Notes under the pieces: generated by a model
Database searches by the model: none
What the model saw: the letters and a program-made list of their open reading frames with translations, nothing else
Told to the model about the DNA's origin: nothing
Shown here: positions 2,579 through 54,604 of the stretch, one piece after another
How positions within the stretch are numbered: position 1 is the first letter of the stretch
Layout of the letters: each line of letters starts with the position of its first letter
From: Bacillota bacterium
GTDB lineage: Bacteria; Armatimonadota; HRBIN16
Direction of reading: 5' to 3'
NCBI GenBank assembly: GCA_023511455.1
Contig: JAIMBJ010000005.1
Location: 62,001 to 126,000, forward strand
Length of the DNA: 64,000 nt
Position numbers and translations under genes: made by a program

Positions 2579-5258
2579 CCAGGATGCTGAAGTCAAACAG
2601 GTTAACCTCCTCGTCGCCATCAAGGTCGGCATTGGGATTCCAGTTTGCATCGCCGGGTACGCTGCCGAAAGCTGCCACCAGCTGCCCGAAGTCGAAGAGG
2701 GTGACCTCGTTGTCTCCGTCGATGTCACCGTTGAGGAGGGTGAAACGCAGCGGCAGGGCAAGTGGAAAGCGTACGTTGCGCAGTGTCTGGCTCAGCCAGT
2801 GCACGCCTTTCAAACGGACGTCGTACACGCCGGCAGGAATAGTTACAGGAATGCGAAATCTTCCCTGCTCGTCCAGCGTTACAGTGAAGCTGTTCGCACC
2901 GACCTGCATCTGCAATACGATACCCTGCGGGGATGCCTGCCAGCCATCCAACGAGACTTCTCCGTCATAAAGCAGACTCAGCAGCTGCCAGTTTACTTTC
3001 GCGGTGGCTGTGCCATCCTCCTCAAAGTATTCCACCACGATACGGTGCGTACCTTCCTGTATCGTGCGTTCGAAAGTGTATTGGGTCTCCGATTGGGTAA
3101 ACCATCTGTCCAGCACGTTTGTGCCGTCTATCCAGATCCTCATACCGTCGCTGGTGGTAGCGGTGAAGCGATAGATGCCCGGAGCGAAGTACCAGTCTCC
3201 CGTCCAGCGCGCGCTGAAGTTGTCACCGGTCAGGGCAGGGTCTGGCGAGCCTTCTCCATAAGCGTAGTCGATGCGCGTTTCCAGCCGGCTGGTCAGATAG
3301 CCCTGCAGGTCTTTCGTGGTGTAATAATCCGCTCTCCATGCGTTCAGCGGCGAATCGGCGGGAGGGGGTTCATCCGCCCAGCTTACCTGCACTCGCGCGG
3401 TACCCGTGTGGTGGCGATAGCGCACTTGCACCCGGTGGTACTCACCCTGCGGAGAGGAACGTCCCGGTACCACGAACGGCGCGTCGCGCGAGGTGTAGAT
3501 AATCGGCTCCCACGTCTGCAGTTCCGTGTTGTCCCATGCATCGAACACCAGCCGGTCGTCGATAATGAGCTGGATTCCGCCATCGGCGGTAATGGTGAAC
3601 TTTTTCCAGCCCTCGGTGAAGCGGATATCACCCAGCCAGTACACGCTGAAGTTATCGGCGTCGACACCGGGGGCAGGTGAGCCGCTCCATGTGAAGTTGA
3701 TGGCGTTATCTGTCCTGTAACGCACGAAGCTCTGGAAATGAATGCCGTTGAAATAGTTGCCCCGCCAGCGGTCACGCGGCACGGTGGTGGGATTATCGCG
3801 CAGGTCTATCTGGCGCACGTAATAGCCATGGGTAAAGAGCTGTCCCTGGGGTGCCATCCAGCGTTGCAGGTTGAAGTCGGTAATCTCCTGGAACAGGAAA
3901 TAGAGTTGACCGCGATAACGCAGCTTGATTATTAGCACCCCTCGATTGACTCTGGGATATCCGAACGGGTTGCTTCCCGGATGGATCATGCCGTTCTCAT
4001 CAGTGACAAAACTCATGTCGGGGATGTTGTCGTAGGACTTGCCGTAGATGCCCGGGTAGGGTCCCGCCTGATAGATGTCCACCTGTGCCCCAGCGATGGG
4101 TATGCCGTTCTGGTCCACAAACTGGATGTGATTGGAGTCGGGCAGGTCGTTGAGGAAAACGCCGATGTCGGGCGGGGCGTTCATGTTGCCGCGTCCGCGT
4201 TTGTGATGTTTCCAGTTCCATACCGCTGCGCTGTATGCATCATAGAAGGGTGAGCCTGCTCCCATGATGTCACGCCACTTGTTATAATACACGCCCTCCC
4301 AGGCGATTTTAGGCATTAGCGGTGTGCCTGCGACCAGGTTGCCGTAATCATCGGTTATCTGGATGGGGAGAGGGTAACCCGGGTAAGCGGACTGGTGAAC
4401 ATCGAAACCGTAGAGGTCGATATGATACCTTGCGTGGTTCATTTCGTGGATACTGCCAAAGTCGATGAAGAACGGTCCGTTCCAGCGGAACCCATAGAAG
4501 CCGTTCGGCTGGATGTCTTCGGGGTGGTAAGGGTAACCCCACTGCATGTCCACCGTGCGGTCTCGGGCGTCAGGGTTGTTCGTGGGCAGTCCCCCCGCAA
4601 GAGGCAGCGCGCCGTCGGGCACGACGACCACTTTGTCCAGCGCCACCCTGTCGAGTGCTCCGTTCGGCGAGGAGGGAAACCTCGCTTTGGCAAGCCACTC
4701 GTTCCAGCGGCGAATCATGCGCTGTGCCCAGTCCTCGAAGCCGTTCGCCCCGTCGTTCAGCAGGTACTGGTTGTTGTGGAAGTAGTTGTACAGGCTCTGT
4801 TCCACCCATAATCCCACCAGCAAGGCGTTCGTGCGGACTGCCACGCGGTTGTTCAGCTTTGAGATTTCATCAAGGGTGCCGGCGGGGTCGGCGCGAAACT
4901 CCAGGGTGTGATCGGTGCTCTCCCAGAACCACTCGTAGGGTACGGTGACCTCTTGCCCCGGCTGGATAGTGACCAGCCCGGACGCTGCCAGTGCGCCATC
5001 AAACCACCATTCGTAAGGCACAGAGACAGCTGCGGTGCCCCAGTTCTTCACATGCGCCAGATAGACCATACGCTGACCGGGCGAAGGCAGTCCAGTGGTG
5101 TAGCTCAGGTCGCCGGGGTCGAACGCGAGGCGAGGTGTCCGCTCGATATAGAGAACATCCACATCGGGCAGGAAGTTCGTAACGGGTACCTGTGCGAGCG
5201 CAGGATAGAGCAGAGCAAGCCATACGGCACAGGTGACAATGACTCTTCGGAGACGCAA
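2547..5258 (-). CDS. Secreted PA14-domain protein with C-terminal dockerin-like repeats
   Basis: This is about 903 residues with a signal peptide (RRVIVTCAVWLALLYPALAQ). Next come a CARDB-like segment (ERTPRLAFDPGDL) and a central region with an HEMNH-like stretch (GSIHEMNHARYH) that could be metal-binding. Two PA14-type domains follow (WTGDWYFAPGIYRFTATTSD is the clearest), then a short carboxypeptidase-regulatory-like segment. The C-terminus is a paired EF-hand-like dockerin module (NGDIDGDNEVTLFDFGQL and DLDGDEEVNLFDFSIL). PA14 domains usually bind glycans, so a role in surface or polysaccharide attachment is inferred. The TTG start at 5258 is chosen for the signal peptide and the preceding AAAGGGGTGG; it sits 34 bp after a near-perfect promoter. 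Confidence 0.8.
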   Translation of the reverse strand: MRLRRVIVTCAVWLALLYPALAQVPVTNFLPDVDVLYIERTPRLAFDPGDLSYTTGLPSPGQRMVYLAHVKNWGTAAVSVPYEWWFDGALAASGLVTIQPGQEVTVPYEWFWESTDHTLEFRADPAGTLDEISKLNNRVAVRTNALLVGLWVEQSLYNYFHNNQYLLNDGANGFEDWAQRMIRRWNEWLAKARFPSSPNGALDRVALDKVVVVPDGALPLAGGLPTNNPDARDRTVDMQWGYPYHPEDIQPNGFYGFRWNGPFFIDFGSIHEMNHARYHIDLYGFDVHQSAYPGYPLPIQITDDYGNLVAGTPLMPKIAWEGVYYNKWRDIMGAGSPFYDAYSAAVWNWKHHKRGRGNMNAPPDIGVFLNDLPDSNHIQFVDQNGIPIAGAQVDIYQAGPYPGIYGKSYDNIPDMSFVTDENGMIHPGSNPFGYPRVNRGVLIIKLRYRGQLYFLFQEITDFNLQRWMAPQGQLFTHGYYVRQIDLRDNPTTVPRDRWRGNYFNGIHFQSFVRYRTDNAINFTWSGSPAPGVDADNFSVYWLGDIRFTEGWKKFTITADGGIQLIIDDRLVFDAWDNTELQTWEPIIYTSRDAPFVVPGRSSPQGEYHRVQVRYRHHTGTARVQVSWADEPPPADSPLNAWRADYYTTKDLQGYLTSRLETRIDYAYGEGSPDPALTGDNFSARWTGDWYFAPGIYRFTATTSDGMRIWIDGTNVLDRWFTQSETQYTFERTIQEGTHRIVVEYFEEDGTATAKVNWQLLSLLYDGEVSLDGWQASPQGIVLQMQVGANSFTVTLDEQGRFRIPVTIPAGVYDVRLKGVHWLSQTLRNVRFPLALPLRFTLLNGDIDGDNEVTLFDFGQLVAAFGSVPGDANWNPNADLDGDEEVNLFDFSILVRNFGKTGDE

Positions 5259-48912: not shown

Positions 48913-48943
48913 CCCGGTGCTCACTGAGCACCCTCAAAATCGC

Positions 48944-48972
48944 TTGACAACTCCTGCGGGAGTGTGTAGAAT
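48944..48972 (+). promoter_or_regulatory. Native tRNA-Gly promoter, now reading into the integrated element
   Basis: TTGACA (48944-48949) and TAGAAT (48967-48972) are 17 bp apart, and the predicted start site (about 48979) coincides with the first base of the 59-bp repeat. Because the tRNA behind it is truncated, this promoter now transcribes toward the integrase gene. Confidence 0.85.
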
Positions 48973-48978
48973 ATTAAC

Positions 48979-49037
48979 GTAGAGCGAGCGGGAGTAGTTC
49001 AGTGGCAGAACGCCAGCTTCCCAAGCTGGATGTCGCG
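48979..49037 (+). repeat. Left 59-bp direct repeat (attL)
   Basis: It is identical over 59 bp to 54521-54579. It covers a 9-base leader and the first 50 nt of tRNA-Gly, including the whole anticodon stem-loop dyad (49013-49029), the likely site of recombinase strand exchange. Sequences diverge immediately on both sides. Confidence 0.93.
48988..49037 (+). pseudogene. Truncated 5' half of tRNA-Gly(CCC)
   Basis: The first 50 nt of the tRNA, up to and including the anticodon arm, are present, then sequence changes at 49038 and the T arm and acceptor 3' strand are missing. It is the host-side remnant left by integration; the intact copy is at 54530. Confidence 0.92.
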
Positions 49038-49098
49038 CTGAAAGCCTCACCCACCACACTACATCTTGTGCCTCTTCACCCTGCATCAGCCTGAAAAC

Positions 49099-49112
49099 CA
49101 CAACATGTTGTG
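49099..49112. promoter_or_regulatory. Left-end palindrome CACAAC-AT-GTTGTG
   Basis: This perfect 14-bp palindrome lies 62 bp inside attL. A matching CACAAC-CT-GTTGTG lies 31 bp inside attR. The paired positions suggest binding sites for the recombinase or its accessory factor. The rest of 49038-49146 shows no other clear signal. Confidence 0.6.
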
Positions 49113-49146
49113 TTGCCACCAAACACACACACGGGAGGCGCAACAC

Positions 49147-50064
49147 ATGCAGATACTCAGCTTGCACATCACGGACACAAACACCATTAACACCACATTC
49201 ACGTTGTGGATGGAAGCACTACAGGCACGCAGGCTTACATCACGAACACTGGAAACCTACAGCGATATGGTAAGTGGCTTTGTGGCTTTCTTGTGCCAGC
49301 AAGGTTGCCAGCAGTTAGAGGAAGTGCAACCCCACCACATTCGCCAGTGGCTGATACACAAGCAAGCACAAGCAGTAAGCACCCACACCCTGCACAACGC
49401 CTACAGGCTACCACGAACCTTCTGGAACTGGTGCATACGCGAAGGCTTAACGGAACACAACCCTTTCGCGAAGGTAGAACCACCAAAACGTGAACAGGTG
49501 CTGAAGCCTGCCCTGAACCCTGAGCAGGTGGAAGCCTTACTGCAGGCGTGTGAAGGCAGGCACTGGCTACGCCTGCGCGATAAGGCACTGGTTCTGCTGT
49601 TGCTGGATACAGGCTTGCGCATTCACGAATGCCACCAGTTGCGCGTGGGTGATGTTCTGCAGAACGCGCTGATTGTGCGTGGCAAAGGTGGTAAACAGCG
49701 CATGGTGGTGCTGAGCGCAGAAGTAAGGCTTGCCTTACTGCGATACCTGAAGGCGTGCCCTGCGAAGCCTTCTGCACAACAGCCACTGTGGCATGGCGCA
49801 GATGGCGCACTTACTCTGGATGGCTTGAAACTGGCGGTGCGCAAGGCAGGCAAGCGTGCTGGTATTCAGTTAGGCGCACACCAGTTGCGCAGAACCTTTG
49901 CCACGTGGAGCCTGCGCAATGGGATTGATTTGGAACACCTGCGCCTGCTGATGGGGCACAGCGACCTGAAAACCACACAGCAATACCTGGCACTGGTAGA
50001 AGATGATTTGAAACGCGCACACGAACAGCACAGCCCACTGAAAACCTTGCGTGAAAGGAGGTGA
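49147..50064 (+). CDS. int: Tyrosine recombinase/integrase of the element
   Basis: The 305-residue protein has the N-terminal SAM-like core-binding domain (residues ~10-105) and the C-terminal catalytic domain. Catalytic residues are visible: Arg158 in DTGLRIHE, a lysine in RGKGGKQR near 180, His245 and Arg248 in HQLRRTFA, His271 in LLMGHSDLKTT and the nucleophile Tyr280. It should integrate and excise the element at tRNA-Gly. ATG 49147 is chosen because GGGAGG lies 7 bp upstream. The downstream gene begins 5 bp after its stop. Confidence 0.94.
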   Translation: MQILSLHITDTNTINTTFTLWMEALQARRLTSRTLETYSDMVSGFVAFLCQQGCQQLEEVQPHHIRQWLIHKQAQAVSTHTLHNAYRLPRTFWNWCIREGLTEHNPFAKVEPPKREQVLKPALNPEQVEALLQACEGRHWLRLRDKALVLLLLDTGLRIHECHQLRVGDVLQNALIVRGKGGKQRMVVLSAEVRLALLRYLKACPAKPSAQQPLWHGADGALTLDGLKLAVRKAGKRAGIQLGAHQLRRTFATWSLRNGIDLEHLRLLMGHSDLKTTQQYLALVEDDLKRAHEQHSPLKTLRERR

Positions 50065-50069
50065 AACAG

Positions 50070-50378
50070 ATGGCTACCCACTACTTCGAAGCAGAAGGCA
50101 AGGTATACAAACTGAACACCACCACTGCCACCAAACTGCTGGATACCTTCAGGCGCAATGGCAACCCACAAACGCGCTGGAGCGAAATCTATCGCACACC
50201 AGCAGGCAGGTATGTGCAGGTGAATCGCACGCAGTGGGAAGGTGAAGAAGATTCAGCAAGCCTGCTTCACGAAGAAGAGGTGGTGATAGCACTGGCACTG
50301 GCTGAACCTTCACAGCGCACACCAGAAGGTGAAGCCCTGCTGGCGCAGAAAGAATCTGCCTTCGTGCAACAGGCATGA
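50070..50378 (+). CDS. Small protein of unknown function in the element
   Basis: The 102 residues (starting ATHYFEAEGKVYKLN) show a mixed alpha/beta pattern with no family I recognise, and an acidic Glu/Ala-rich C-terminal third. A perfect SD (AAAGGAGG) overlaps the end of int, so it is probably translated with it. Its position suggests an accessory factor for recombination or replication, but nothing in the sequence proves this. Confidence 0.65.
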   Translation: MATHYFEAEGKVYKLNTTTATKLLDTFRRNGNPQTRWSEIYRTPAGRYVQVNRTQWEGEEDSASLLHEEEVVIALALAEPSQRTPEGEALLAQKESAFVQQA

Positions 50379-50408
50379 ATCTGCGCAGAAAAACATCTAC
50401 ACAAACCC

Positions 50409-50437
50409 TTGCAGTTTGTGGCAAGGTGTGGTATAAT
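50409..50437 (+). promoter_or_regulatory. Strong promoter with overlapping dyad, upstream of the hairpin RNA and HTH gene
   Basis: TTGCAG (50409-50414) and TATAAT (50432-50437) are spaced 17 bp. The dyad CCTTGC-N8-GCAAGG (50407-50426) covers the -35 box and half the spacer, an operator-like position, and its half site matches the iteron core of the primase-gene clusters. Confidence 0.8.
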
Positions 50438-50443
50438 GTAGAT

Positions 50444-50533
50444 GCTGGCGCGATGCGCTAGAGGATTGAAACTAGCCTGCTAAGATACCCGGATTGCTGT
50501 TTTACAGCACAGGCGAATCTTAGCAGGCTTTTT
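50444..50533 (+). ncRNA. Predicted ~90-nt structured RNA with terminator/attenuator
   Basis: From the predicted start near 50444 the transcript contains a small hairpin (GGCGC/GCGCT), then GGATTGAAAC (50463-50472), as at the 3' end of many CRISPR repeats. A perfect 13-bp stem follows (50474-50486 with 50517-50529) whose 30-base loop holds a second hairpin (TGCTGT/ACAGCA), and then TTTTTGC. The RNA could be a free small RNA or an attenuated leader of the HTH gene, whose SD begins 10 bp later. No cas gene is present. Confidence 0.55.
50474..50533 (+). terminator. Intrinsic terminator of the hairpin RNA
   Basis: A perfect 13-bp stem (AGCCTGCTAAGAT with its complement) is followed by five T residues. 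It lies between the promoter at 50409 and the HTH start at 50551, so read-through must be controlled or low. Confidence 0.75.
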
Positions 50534-50550
50534 GCTTTAGGAGGTGCTAA

Positions 50551-50739
50551 ATGCAAGAAACGCAGTACAAACTGTTGAGTGTGAAGCAAACAGCGCAGGA
50601 ACTGGGCGTAAGCCGGGAAACCGTGCGCAGGTGGATCCACAAGGGTGTACTTCGCGCTGTGCGCATAGGGAGGAACCACAAGATACCTGAGGCACAATTG
50701 CAGAAACTGATAAGGAGGCAGGGTGAGCTAACGCCTTAG
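50551..50739 (+). CDS. Excisionase-family helix-turn-helix protein
   Basis: The 62-residue protein is essentially one MerR/HTH_17-type winged helix. It has LLSVKQTAQELGVSRETVRRW at residues 8-28, then the wing KGVLRAVRIGRNHKIPEAQL. Such proteins direct excision (Xis) or repress promoters of mobile elements. GGAGGTG precedes ATG 50551, directly after the terminator hairpin, which suggests attenuation control. Confidence 0.87.
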   Translation: MQETQYKLLSVKQTAQELGVSRETVRRWIHKGVLRAVRIGRNHKIPEAQLQKLIRRQGELTP

Positions 50740-50754
50740 CATTCCAAAACGAAA

Positions 50755-50805
50755 CTCGCCTGCGCCAGGTTTTGAGCAAGCCACACGCGCAGGCGAGACA
50801 CCTGG
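50755..50805 (+). other. Predicted H-type RNA pseudoknot in the primase leader
   Basis: CTCGCCTGCGC (50755-50765) pairs perfectly with GCGCAGGCGAG (50787-50797). The first loop bases CAGGT (50766-50770) can pair with ACCTG (50800-50804) just past the stem, giving the order needed for a pseudoknot. No T-tract follows. The primase ATG is about 50 bp downstream. Confidence 0.55.
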
Positions 50806-50856
50806 TAGCTGAGCGAGCCACTACAACCATAGGAGGTTGCACCAGGAGATTACACT

Positions 50857-52878
50857 ATGATTATACCACAAAAGTTGCAAAATGTGTTAGCCAGATTGGG
50901 CAATGTGCGCCAACAGCGCGATGGCAGCTGGTTGGCGCACTGCCCTGCGCACGATGATCACGAGCCAAGCCTTCACATTACCCTGCAAAATGAAAGGGTG
51001 CTTCTTCACTGCTTTGCAGGATGCTCCTTGCAAGCGATCTGCAACGCGCTGAACATTGAACCCAAACATCTGTTCCTGTGCGAAGAACCAGCAAGCCACC
51101 AGCACCCTGAAGGCGAAGGATTAACACTGCAAGCCTTCGCGAAGGCGAAACACCTTGAGGCTGAACTGTTGCGCCAGGCGCAGGTTACGCAAGGTATGTA
51201 TCAGGGTAAGCCTGCTGTGTTGCTCAAGTATCGCGATGCTGAAGGCGACCTGCAGGCGATTCGCTATCGTGTGACACTGGCAGGCGATCGCTTCAGGTGG
51301 CAGAAGGGTGCTGAGCCTCGCCAGTTAGCGTATGGCGAGTGGTGGCTTCCCCAATGGCGTGAAAAGGGCAGGCGCGAAATTGTGCTGGTAGAGGGAGAGA
51401 GTGATGCCTTAACACTGTGGCAGATGGGCGTGCCAGCACTGGGCATTGCGGGAGCAAACAGTTTGAGCGAATATCACGCTGAACTGTTGGCAGGCTTTAA
51501 GGTGGTGGTTTGGCAGGAACCTGATTCAGGGGGCGCAACCTTCGCGCAGAAGGCTTCGCAGCTGTTCCAGAACGTGAGGCTAATCGAGCCACCACAAGGC
51601 GTGAAAGATGCGAATGAACTGTGGCTCAAGTGTGTGGCCCAACACGGCGAGAACGCGAAGGCTATTTTCAAACAGCAGATTCGCGAACTGCTGGCGCAGG
51701 CGAAGCCTGTGGAGGCTAGTGAACCCCAGACCTTGCATGAAACCTTGCAATATATAAGGGGTTGCAAGCTTCAAGGTGTTAACCACCTGTATACTCTCCA
51801 CGAACTGAAGAACGCGCCTGCCCACGAATCTTCAACAGAGGCGAGCCTGCCCTTCTTCGGTGTTTCAGGAATCATCCGTAAGGGCAGGAGCCACCTGCTG
51901 GCAGGCAAGCCACGTGTTGGGAAAACTGAAGCCCTGTTTCGTGGTGGAGTGCTGGAGTGGCACAACGAGAGAATACTCTACCTGAGCGAGGAGGGTATCG
52001 AAGATTGGCGCGTGCGCCTCGCCAGCTTCGCGGATGATGAATTGCCTGAACAGTGCCACGTGCGTTTGTGCGCAGGAGAATCGCGTGAGAATCTTCTGGC
52101 TGAGATTCGCGAAGGGGGTTACAGCGTGGTGGTGTTGGATACCCTGCGTGGGGTATGGCGATTGAGTGATGAACTCCACCCTTCACGTGTGATCCAGGAT
52201 GTATCACCCCTGATTGATTTACAGCGCAAGTTGCGGTTTACACTGGTGGTGCTTCACCATGAGCGCAAGGCAGAAGGCGAGGCTTTCAGCGATAGGTTTG
52301 CTGGAACGAATGCCTTGAGTGGTATGTTTGATATGCTACTGAGCCTGAACCAGAAGAGCGAGGGCAATTTGGTGCTTTCCTACGAAGGTAGAACCTCGCA
52401 AGGTGGCAGCCTGATGCTGCAGTGGCAGGATGGCAACCTGCGCTACGTGGGCGAGGCAGAAACAATGGAGTGGCGAGTGCTACTTCAGCGCATCGAGGCA
52501 GTGCTGTATCGTGCGAGTAAGCCATTAAACACTCAAGAGGTTAGGCGTGAATTAGGCGAACCTCTTCCAGGTTATCGCACTGTGTTGAACGCCTTAAACT
52601 ATCTCTACCAGAACCAACAGATTGAACGCGAACCAAAAGAGACCAAAGCTGGGGCTACTTACAGATGGTACATCACACCCACAAGGCGTGAAAGCCACAA
52701 GGCAACCCCTGAATCTGTTGCTATCCCCCACCTTGCACCTTGCGAGCCTATATATATGCAAGGTTTTTTGCAAGGTTCGAGCGATGGCGAGCCTGAACTG
52801 CCCTGGTGGGCAACAGGCGAGGGCGTGCCAGAAGGTGAGCCTGCCTTTCTGGAGGTGAGCGAAGATGAACGCGCATGA
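50857..52878 (+). CDS. Primase (CHC2 zinc and TOPRIM) fused to a RecA-like ATPase
   Basis: The 673 residues contain a CHC2-like zinc site (C29, H32, C52, C56) and a TOPRIM core (IVLVEGESDALTLW at 175-188, then EPDSGG at 221-226). The RecA/RepA-like ATPase has Walker A LAGKPRVGKTEAL at 348-360 and Walker B SVVVLDTL at 423-430. The C-terminal ~120 residues look like a winged-helix region. It likely primes and unwinds the element's DNA. The gene also carries two iteron-like clusters, in the TOPRIM-ATPase linker (codons ~291-308) and near the C-terminus (~625-640). It overlaps the next gene by 14 bp. Confidence 0.88.
   Translation: MIIPQKLQNVLARLGNVRQQRDGSWLAHCPAHDDHEPSLHITLQNERVLLHCFAGCSLQAICNALNIEPKHLFLCEEPASHQHPEGEGLTLQAFAKAKHLEAELLRQAQVTQGMYQGKPAVLLKYRDAEGDLQAIRYRVTLAGDRFRWQKGAEPRQLAYGEWWLPQWREKGRREIVLVEGESDALTLWQMGVPALGIAGANSLSEYHAELLAGFKVVVWQEPDSGGATFAQKASQLFQNVRLIEPPQGVKDANELWLKCVAQHGENAKAIFKQQIRELLAQAKPVEASEPQTLHETLQYIRGCKLQGVNHLYTLHELKNAPAHESSTEASLPFFGVSGIIRKGRSHLLAGKPRVGKTEALFRGGVLEWHNERILYLSEEGIEDWRVRLASFADDELPEQCHVRLCAGESRENLLAEIREGGYSVVVLDTLRGVWRLSDELHPSRVIQDVSPLIDLQRKLRFTLVVLHHERKAEGEAFSDRFAGTNALSGMFDMLLSLNQKSEGNLVLSYEGRTSQGGSLMLQWQDGNLRYVGEAETMEWRVLLQRIEAVLYRASKPLNTQEVRRELGEPLPGYRTVLNALNYLYQNQQIEREPKETKAGATYRWYITPTRRESHKATPESVAIPHLAPCEPIYMQGFLQGSSDGEPELPWWATGEGVPEGEPAFLEVSEDERA
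51730..51777 (+). repeat. Iteron-like cluster A inside the primase gene
   Basis: Two ACCTTGCA copies (51730-51737, 51742-51749) are 12 bp apart. They are followed by TATATAA, then the inverted partial copies TTGCAAG and CAAGGTG. The cluster lies in a protein linker and recurs in inverted orientation 1 kb downstream. Confidence 0.65.
52730..52776 (-). repeat. Iteron-like cluster B, inverted relative to cluster A
   Basis: Read on the minus strand it gives ACCTTGCA, 4 bases, ACCTTGCA, then TATATATA, then CAAGGTGCAAGGT: the same order and 12-bp period as cluster A. Plus-strand coordinates of the three full cores are 52730-52737, 52757-52764 and 52769-52776. Confidence 0.65.
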
Positions 52879-53812
52879 GTTGCTGGATGCCCTTCACGTG
52901 GCAGGCATCGCTGTATGGGTAGAACAGGGCAGGTTGGGTATTTACCCACCTTCACGCCTCACGCCAGAACTGAAGCAGGCACTGCGCGAGCAGGGCAAAG
53001 AGCTGGCGCGAATCATCGAGCAGGAATATATCTGCTGGCACTGCGAAAGCCACCACGTGCGCTTCGATGTGCCACTACAGCGTTACGTGTGTGAAGCGTG
53101 CAGGCGCGTGCTACAGGAACCTCTTTCACCCTTCCCACCACTGCATGAACTGCTATGGCAGGCAGGTTCAGTGTATGGTTTCCCTGCGCTGAAGTTAGCA
53201 CCCCACATCACCCTGAAGGCAGGGCGTGAATCATGGCTTACCTTCTGCACCTCACCCTTCACGAAACACCACACACGCCTGCTGGTGCTGGCGTATCGCA
53301 AACTGGTAAACCCTGCACAGGCAGATGAGATAGAACCTGAACCCAACCACAAACCACATCACACGACGGAGGTGAACCACATGAAACTGGTATGGCAAGA
53401 TTCCGAACCACTGCCCACTGGCGAATACCTGGTAAGGGTTGCCAGCATCACTGAGAAGGAGGGCAAGTACAGCCTGCAGTTACAGTGGATGTTTCGCGTG
53501 CTGGAACCAGGATACGAAGGGCGCGAACTGATTGCCTACACGAACGCCACCAACAGCACCACAGCCAAACTGGCGCAGTGGGCACGGGCGTTAGGTTGTG
53601 AAGTGGTGCCCGGTGAAGAGTTTGATACGGATGAACTGGTGGGGCGCAAGGCTATCGCTGTGGTGGTGGTAAAGCCTTCTCAGCAGGGCAATCGCTACAA
53701 CCACGTGGAGAACCTGCTACCAGTGCGCCAGAAGAAGCCTGTGGCTGTGAGTGCGAAGGCAGAAAGCGAGGCAGAAGAACGCGATTACTTCTCTGAAGAA
53801 GAAGAGGATTGA
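52865..53812 (+). CDS. TubC_N-like, zinc-ribbon and DUF669-like protein with internal start
   Basis: Residues 1-50 match the TubC N-terminal docking fold (LLDALHVAGIAVWVEQGRLGI), which is frequent on phage and plasmid genes. A CWHC and CEAC zinc ribbon follows at ~57-80. Residues 173-315 resemble the phage DUF669 family of presumed single-strand-binding proteins (GEYLVRVASITEKEGKYSLQLQW), with an acidic SSB-like tail (DYFSEEEEED pattern). A perfect SD (GGAGGTGA) 5 bp before an in-frame ATG at 53381 should give a separate 143-residue C-terminal product. The tail supports a single-strand-binding role by analogy. Confidence 0.72.
   Translation: MNAHELLDALHVAGIAVWVEQGRLGIYPPSRLTPELKQALREQGKELARIIEQEYICWHCESHHVRFDVPLQRYVCEACRRVLQEPLSPFPPLHELLWQAGSVYGFPALKLAPHITLKAGRESWLTFCTSPFTKHHTRLLVLAYRKLVNPAQADEIEPEPNHKPHHTTEVNHMKLVWQDSEPLPTGEYLVRVASITEKEGKYSLQLQWMFRVLEPGYEGRELIAYTNATNSTTAKLAQWARALGCEVVPGEEFDTDELVGRKAIAVVVVKPSQQGNRYNHVENLLPVRQKKPVAVSAKAESEAEERDYFSEEEED
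53381..53812 (+). CDS. Probable independently translated DUF669-like single-strand-binding protein (internal start)
   Basis: ATG 53381 is in frame with the longer gene and is preceded by GGAGGTGA at optimal spacing, stronger than the SD of the full-length start. The product would be 143 residues starting MKLVWQDSEPLPTGEYLV, the natural start of DUF669-like proteins, and would end in an acidic tail. Either two proteins are made from one frame or two ancestral genes have fused. Confidence 0.6.
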   Translation: MKLVWQDSEPLPTGEYLVRVASITEKEGKYSLQLQWMFRVLEPGYEGRELIAYTNATNSTTAKLAQWARALGCEVVPGEEFDTDELVGRKAIAVVVVKPSQQGNRYNHVENLLPVRQKKPVAVSAKAESEAEERDYFSEEEED

Positions 53813-53938
53813 ACCTTCGCGTAGAAGGCGTTTCTAAGCCACCAGAAAGCCTGTACAGCCACGATTCAGGCGCAGGCGAGGGGTTCCCCTTCCCTTCACG
53901 TGAAAACGCGCTGTGCAGGCTTCCTGGAGCCTTTCAGG

Positions 53939-54241
53939 ATGCACCAGCACACCTTACACGCCAGAACGATTGTACGCTACCTGCAGAAACGTGGTGCATG
54001 GGTAGCGCGAATACGTGGCACATGGGGGCAACGTAGAGGCTTGCCTGATATACTGGCGTGCTGGCAGGGCAGGCTGATTGCTATTGAGGTGAAAACAGGC
54101 AGTGGCAGGTTAACGCCAGCACAGAAGCGTGAACACGAAGCCCTGCGCACTGCAGGTGCAGTGGTGCTGGTGGGCAACGCTGAACAGGTGCTTTCCGAGC
54201 TGGAACATCTTACCCACGAACCCCAGTTGCGCTTGCTGTAA
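53939..54241 (+). CDS. VRR-NUC domain nuclease
   Basis: The 100-residue protein is a stand-alone VRR-NUC (PD-(D/E)XK) domain: RGLPDILACWQGRLIAIEVKTG near residues 38-60 provides the catalytic Asp, Glu and Lys, followed by GRLTPAQKREHEAL. Stand-alone copies occur in phages and satellites beside replication genes and are thought to resolve or process branched DNA. ATG 53939 has GGAG 8-9 bp upstream; a GTG at 53900 is an alternative. It is the last gene of the element. Confidence 0.85.
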   Translation: MHQHTLHARTIVRYLQKRGAWVARIRGTWGQRRGLPDILACWQGRLIAIEVKTGSGRLTPAQKREHEALRTAGAVVLVGNAEQVLSELEHLTHEPQLRLL

Positions 54242-54262
54242 CCCGAAAAATGAAACGGAAAA

Positions 54263-54322
54263 GGGTACGTAAGCATACCCCAACCTCAACGGCGATACAT
54301 GTATCTGGAAGGTGTACGTACA
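54263..54322. repeat. Cluster of short palindromes near the right end of the element
   Basis: Three dyads lie close together: GGGTA-N8-TACCC (54263-54280), the perfect GATACATGTATC (54294-54305) and TGTACGTACA (54313-54322). A single iteron core TGCAAGGT follows at 54359. The rest of 54242-54520 is noncoding. Confidence 0.5.
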
Positions 54323-54475
54323 GTGTACTATTTCATGCGCAGGCACGCTGATAGATTTTGCAAGGTTTTGGGAGATTTGGGGATATGGCGTGCTTGCTTT
54401 TTGTGGCAGAATGTGTTAAGATAAATAGTGGCTGTGTGAGATAGCCAGCTACCTGGAAATTGGCAGTGTGCGCAA

Positions 54476-54489
54476 CACAACCTGTTGTG
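54476..54489. promoter_or_regulatory. Right-end palindrome CACAAC-CT-GTTGTG
   Basis: It matches the left-end site in both 6-bp arms and lies 31 bp inside attR. TTGTGC (54485-54490) and TAGCAT (54508-54513) with a 17-bp spacer overlap its right arm and could form the promoter of the restored tRNA. Confidence 0.55.
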
Positions 54490-54520
54490 CCTGCAGGGCG
54501 TGAAGGGTAGCATATCTTGT

Positions 54521-54579
54521 GTAGAGCGAGCGGGAGTAGTTCAGTGGCAGAACGCCAGCTTCCCAAGCTGGATGTCGCG
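54521..54579 (+). repeat. Right 59-bp direct repeat (attR)
   Basis: It is identical to 48979-49037 and contains the leader and 5' half of the restored tRNA-Gly. Confidence 0.93.
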
Positions 54580-54604
54580 GGTTCGAGTCCCGTCTCCCGC
54601 TCCA
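54530..54604 (+). tRNA. tRNA-Gly(CCC), restored at the right end of the element
   Basis: A full cloverleaf with encoded CCA: acceptor GCGGGAG/CTCCCGC, anticodon stem CCAGC/GCTGG with loop TTCCCAA (anticodon CCC) and T arm CGGG-TTCGAGT-CCCG. Its 5' 50 nt come from the direct repeat carried by the element, its 3' part from the chromosome. Confidence 0.96.

Follow-up and report, generated by a model that had tools for sequence, protein, structure and literature searches.

Paired iteron-type sites inside the primase-helicase gene of a tRNA-integrated element are probable replication origin sites read by its own initiator

The window, i.e., the whole 64,000-nucleotide stretch of DNA that was analysed and to which the coordinates below refer, contains a 5.5-kb integrated element (48979–54579) which sits in a tRNA-Gly(ccc) gene and has a perfect 59-bp direct repeat at both ends. 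The left copy, attL (48979–49037, forward strand), comprises the 5' part of tRNA-Gly(ccc) plus 9 bp upstream of it and is identical at 59 of 59 positions to attR (54521–54579, forward strand), which overlaps an intact tRNA-Gly at 54530–54604. An empty site was found in a relative (genome G007), where the same chromosomal flanks join at a single tRNA-Gly, and together with the direct repeats and the integrase this identifies the region as an integrative element at a tRNA gene. A host promoter-like TTGACA..TAGAAT remains at attL after integration (48930–49037), and at attR (54470–54604) the intact tRNA-Gly is preceded by element sequence, so that the element may now supply the promoter of this tRNA.

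Six genes, all on the forward strand, are carried by the element: a tyrosine recombinase (integrase; 49066–50064; PF00589, 2.3e-30; phrog_1, 5.7e-48), a 105-aa protein (50061–50378) with no match in Pfam, PHROGs, NCBIfam or PADLOC, an excisionase-type helix-turn-helix (HTH) protein (50551–50739; HTH_17, 1.1e-14; TIGR01764 'excise', 1.1e-14), the initiator Rep (50857–52878), a 315-aa protein whose C-terminal half resembles DUF669 and phage ssDNA-binding proteins (52865–53812; DUF669, 4.3e-6; phrog_378, 2e-4), and a 113-aa Hjc/VRR-NUC-like nuclease (53900–54241; Hjc, 7.4e-8; phrog_93, 9.5e-19). Pfam and PHROGs searches of the six turned up no family of phage structural or packaging proteins, weak matches to HTH domains aside. 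Rep is a protein of 673 aa in which a zinc/Toprim primase is followed by a RecA-type (SF4) helicase and a winged helix (Pfam CHC2-like, Toprim_2 and AAA_25). Its AlphaFold2 model, built from 19 sequences, has a mean pLDDT of 80, and its best fold matches in the PDB are the primase-helicases T7 gp4 and Twinkle, with DnaB and RadA also matched; the winged-helix domain (aa 534–605; 52456–52671, forward strand) was delimited from AlphaFold2 models and matches winged-helix DNA-binding regulators.

Two short repeat arrays, neither assigned to a strand, lie within rep, at least 102 bp before its end. Site A (51730–51777; codons 292–307, in the linker between Toprim and RecA) holds two copies of ACCTTGCA with a 12-bp step (51730 and 51742), ATATATAA at 51750, and inverted TTGCAAG at 51762 and CAAGGT at 51772. 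Site B (52730–52776; codons 625–640, in the tail following the winged helix) holds two copies of ACCTTGC with a 7-bp step (52730 and 52737), CCTATATATA, and two inverted copies of TGCAAGGT, again with a 12-bp step (52757 and 52769). The AT centres span ~6–10 bp, which is below the usual length of an unwinding element. A sixth, single copy of ACCTTGCA lies on the reverse strand at 54359–54366, ~155 bp before attR, and is possibly a chance occurrence. The earlier note on this DNA had placed five copies of the 8-mer in two clusters of rep, with a 12-bp period and in codons of linker and tail segments, and one at 54359; every coordinate proved correct, the period is seen at both sites, and the codons concerned fall in segments predicted to be disordered, as those with pLDDT below 50 include residues 288–313 (site A) and 614–650 (site B).

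It had also been claimed that chance would provide far fewer such 8-mers, with a genome-wide count proposed as a check. We found ACCTTGCA 79 times in the 3.85-Mb genome, six of these within the 5.5-kb element; the 73 copies in the other 3.845 Mb predict 0.11 in the element against the six seen (Poisson P ~2e-9), which bears out both the rarity of the 8-mer and its enrichment in the element. The spaced pair ACCTTGCA-N4-ACCTTGCA occurs twice genome-wide, at sites A and B only. A codon-aware null is milder: synonymous codon shuffling within rep raises the mean expectation for ACCTTGCA to 0.7, other 8-mers reach five copies, and the self-similarity (local repeat) score of the gene ranks no higher than the 95th percentile among control ORFs. 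The window by itself is therefore suggestive rather than decisive, and it is the relatives that decide.

Relatives were found with a profile of four Rep proteins and are spread across the phylum. By inspection, 12 elements from seven genomes and two families (that of the window, L035, L036, L038, L076, L077, L078, L079, L081, L082, L084 and L086) carry one array at the Toprim-RecA linker (A) and another in the tail that follows the winged helix (B); in each, a short centre, mostly TATATA or TTAA, separates iterons from inverted iterons. The iterons are element-specific, for example ACCTGGCA in L035, AACCTACCT in L036, GTGACGGA in L038 and TCTGGCAA in L081 (whose arrays read ATTCTGGCAATCTGGCAACTCCTTAAGCAATTGCCAGATTGCCAGATTGCCAGAA at A and ATTCTGGCAATCTGGCAATCTGGCAATCTCTTAATACCTTGCCAGATTGCCAGAA at B), and in the arrays inspected the elements of one genome carry different ones. 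The earlier note had expected repeats to be kept along with the protein; taken literally this fails for the 8-mer, which is absent or scattered in the relatives, but the same places hold other iterons, and this strengthens the case for an origin. The inverted order of the two clusters, likewise claimed, holds in the window, L035, L036 and L076 but not in L081 and L084, where A and B have the same orientation, and mutual inversion is therefore not a defining property.

The arrays are also found with differently composed initiators. L036 has no primase, and its site A lies in the short N-terminal part, at the matching place before RecA; in L040, whose gene is helicase-only, site A lies upstream of the gene and site B in the tail; in L041, L090 and L092 (same genus) a Prim-Pol (AEP) primase replaces Toprim ahead of the same module of helicase, winged helix and tail array, the tail array being strong; and several relatives have the tail site only. 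Nearly all iteron copies of a relative's fetched locus fall within the Rep gene. The iterons of these arrays are found on both strands and in all three reading frames and so are not accounted for by repeats in the peptide; together with the position of the window's sites in predicted disordered segments this argues that selection acts on the DNA. In viral contigs weak relatives were obtained through the primase, and none through the 315-aa protein or the L081 or L035 initiators, so that no close viral relatives were found.

For a test of matching between the two sites, linker and tail regions were set by HMM coordinates alone, independently of the repeats. The 8-mer sharing of each element's own A and B totals 619, whereas 100,000 permutations gave a mean of 185 and a maximum of 404 (p = 1e-5, for elements that are mutually related). 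We relied on this test and not on local alignment of A to B, in which the sites are chosen by their shared motif and which is therefore circular for p. A repeat-array score above 16 was reached by 26 of the 51 Rep genes and by one of the 169 other ORFs of the same loci, the elements being related and not independent events; eight Rep genes have an array at most 700 bp behind the stop codon instead, and 18 of the 51, including those of the window, L076 and L078, have none above the strict threshold.

L077 and L078, both resident in genome G241, are 82–100% identical over most of codons 147–290 and 83–100% identical at codons 357–390, and at site A identity is down to 48–63%, with each site A matching its own site B. 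The window and L038 share the primase (52–54%) and the 315-aa protein (53%), and their helicase-winged-helix parts and both sites are unrelated; with L036 the Rep match of the window is confined to codons 302–607, i.e., the helicase-winged-helix module. In both cases the homology break falls at site A. In addition, the winged helices are most alike in the two pairs of elements whose sites are also most alike. The presence of different repeats at the same two places in relatives suggests that the probable start sites and the initiator protein of each element change together. A general link of the iterons to the winged helix or to RecA over all 66 pairs was considered and set aside as not significant (iteron similarity against winged-helix identity, Spearman 0.19, p = 0.17; against primase identity in the same pairs, Spearman 0.52), and the claim is confined to the closest pairs. 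The reading of the winged helix (aa 534–605) as the probable iteron-binding domain consequently rests on its modelled fold, its position and precedent.

The helicase of P4 alpha belongs to SF3. That of Rep is of the RecA/SF4 type (T7 gp4-like) and does not class as SF3, so that Rep is not a member of the P4 alpha group. The likeness to P4 consists in the fusion of a Toprim primase, a helicase and a winged helix in one protein, as described for alpha (PMC4234260), in octamer iterons, which in the crr unit stand as two on one side of an AT-containing centre and two inverted ones on the other, and in the arrangement of short iterons in opposed sets at two separate cis regions. In the P4 record (NC_001609) the crr octamers lie at 4314 and 4323 on the forward strand and then at 4366 and 4384 on the reverse strand, directly behind alpha, and the annotated iterons are outside that gene, whereas here both sites are intragenic and flank the helicase module. 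As a positive control, our array scan recovered crr behind the alpha gene; among distant initiators it also detected arrays, placed at the 3' end of the gene or behind it, in phage THSA-485A and in plasmids of Streptomyces and Salinibacter.

In PICI origins an AT-rich region is invariably bordered by two sets of iterons (PMC6092414); the C-terminal domain of SaPI Rep recognises iterons directly downstream of rep, and that of Cch2 binds its origin repeats (PMC7581432). The element resembles these islands in being integrated, in having its own initiator helicase, in its two iteron sets flanking an AT-rich region, and in the C-terminal winged helix of Rep, which would correspond to the origin-recognising domain of SaPI Rep. 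Their origins, however, lie directly downstream of rep, whereas its sites are inside rep and doubled, and by origin position the element is not a PICI; PICI packaging, interference or regulatory genes were not recognised in it. Intragenic origins as such are already known from lambda, lambdoid origins being located inside the O gene, where changes in iteron number add residues to O (PMC7466680). An iteron array with an AT tract inside the initiator gene is present here too, but O has no primase or helicase domains and a single origin, whereas Rep is a primase-helicase with two sites, and in place of a P-type helicase loader, for which the element has no P-like gene, Rep has its own helicase. 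With T7 gp4 and Twinkle Rep shares the flexible link between a Toprim primase and a RecA-type helicase, to which it adds the C-terminal winged helix and the DNA sites in linker and tail codons. ORF904 of pRN1 is likewise a multidomain initiator with a C-terminal winged helix and an origin at the 3' end of its gene (PMC4234260), but there the origin, located downstream of the gene, consists of a stem-loop of 100 nt and has no iterons, and the primase is of the archaeo-eukaryotic type. Within the limited open-access literature searched, paired and matched origins on both sides of a helicase module across an element family were not found.

We consider it likely that the tRNA-integrated element uses sites A and B as iteron-type replication origin sites, which its own Rep reads. 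The lambda/P4-type origin proposed in the earlier note gains support from the A/B-matched arrays at the same places in relatives, the predicted winged helix and the P4 crr layout, and the best reading, by analogy, is that of PICI/P4-like iteron origins that would have moved inside the initiator gene and been doubled around the helicase-DNA-binding module. In such a scheme the short iterons would be bound by the C-terminal winged helix of Rep, and the two opposed sets would bring Rep assemblies into a head-to-head arrangement on either side of the short AT-rich centre, where the DNA would be melted; the RecA-type ring would unwind outwards while the fused primase primes, and the excised circle would then be copied by host polymerases. 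The second site may act as crr does with ori in P4, or may form a second origin. Since the sites are written into codons of flexible segments on both sides of the module, the helicase-winged-helix module and its binding sites would be inherited together.

Several other explanations would account for part of these observations. The sites could bind Rep or the HTH protein for regulation only (autorepression, copy-number handcuffing or incompatibility), the real origin being elsewhere in the element: plasmid iterons often also serve copy control, sites ~1 kb apart invite looping, the inspected arrays of co-resident elements have different iterons, as incompatibility would favour, and a half-iteron palindrome (50407–50426) lies just upstream of a TATAAT at 50432. 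We nevertheless regard a purely regulatory role as unlikely, as no further array turned up in the element, the iterons of relatives are nearly all inside the Rep gene, and the layout equals that of P4 crr and of PICI origins (PMC6092414). Exchange sites moving helicase-winged-helix cassettes between elements would agree with L038 and L036, whose homology to the window protein changes at site A, and with two inverted arms around an asymmetric centre, which are recombinase-site-like. Strand exchange needs equal cores, however, and the centres of A and B differ within the window (ATATATAAGGGGT and TATATATAGGCTC), the short tandem units vary in number from arm to arm, and the element has no extra recombinase, with attL and attR at the tRNA, all of which makes this explanation quite improbable.

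A role of the sites as hairpins of the rep mRNA, acting in attenuation, translation control or message stability, has very little to recommend it: hairpins require neither sequence sharing between A and B 1 kb apart nor tandem copies within an arm, site A of the window folds poorly (z -1.5), and the Rfam search of the element returned the tRNA as its sole match, even though site B, L036 site A and L035 site A do fold better than shuffles when treated as DNA single strands (z ~ -4.3). An origin of the repeats in codon usage or in repeated linker peptides, towards which the mean of 0.7 ACCTTGCA in synonymous shuffles of the gene and the five copies reached by other 8-mers point, is the least probable of all, given arrays of different sequence at the same places in relatives, the A/B matching within elements, the use of all frames and both strands, and the excess of array-bearing Rep genes over control ORFs.

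Going beyond probable origin sites read by Rep, we put forward tentatively that the stretch from A to B is a self-contained replication cassette comprising the helicase, the DNA-binding domain and both cognate origins, which would be joined to varied partners (a Toprim primase in the window and in L038, none in L036, and in L040 with site A upstream of the gene) and would diversify by coordinated change of winged helix and sites, allowing several elements to coexist per cell, with the two sites cooperating like P4 ori and crr. For uncharacterised integrative elements the arrays would provide a sequence rule for finding origins, i.e., to inspect the primase-helicase gene in its linker and tail codons, or the DNA just behind it. 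Co-resident elements with near-identical primases and different iterons are natural experiments in the co-evolution of initiators and sites, and another is provided by L077 and L078, which diverge locally at site A amid flanks that are nearly identical.

Upstream of the HTH gene (50432–50535) a TATAAT is followed by a small hairpin ending in AGAGGATTGAAAC and then by a strong terminator-like hairpin (z -4.2). The 12-mer GAGGATTGAAAC at the end of the small hairpin occurs 39 times in the genome, 38 of these being the 3' ends of host CRISPR repeats (37 bp, GTTGCACCCGTCC..GGACGGGTGAGGATTGAAAC); the stem of the hairpin differs in sequence from the host repeat, and no CRISPR-repeat-like unit was found in the relatives inspected. 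Solitary CRISPR repeat units are described as RNA anti-CRISPRs (PMC10651486), and by analogy the hairpin is possibly a solitary CRISPR-repeat mimic of this kind, or a mini-CRISPR guide. At 50407–50437 the sequence CCTTGCAGTTTGTGGCAAGG presents inverted iteron-like halves just upstream of the TATAAT (TTGCAG, 17 bp, TATAAT) and, judging by these halves, may be a Rep operator; iterons were not seen at this position in relatives, and no strict sigma-70 match was obtained when the region upstream of the HTH gene was scanned for promoters.

Of the relatives L037, L038 and L083 (genome G005), two are copies with 99.9% identity across 7.6 kb and the third is a fragment located at the end of a contig; this may reflect recent multiplication or assembly repeats. 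Behind the nuclease gene of L036 (7600–7680) lie short tandem repeats of the GTTAGCGCAGGCGTTAGCACTAAC type. Pairs of tRNA-Gly copies 7–17 kb apart were also seen in relatives (G005:C3:336939/354041, G003:C2:882303/889996 and G005:C1:1460632/1467558) and suggest that more elements are present at tRNA-Gly genes; the Prim-Pol initiator of L090 lies between the two copies of the G003:C2 pair.
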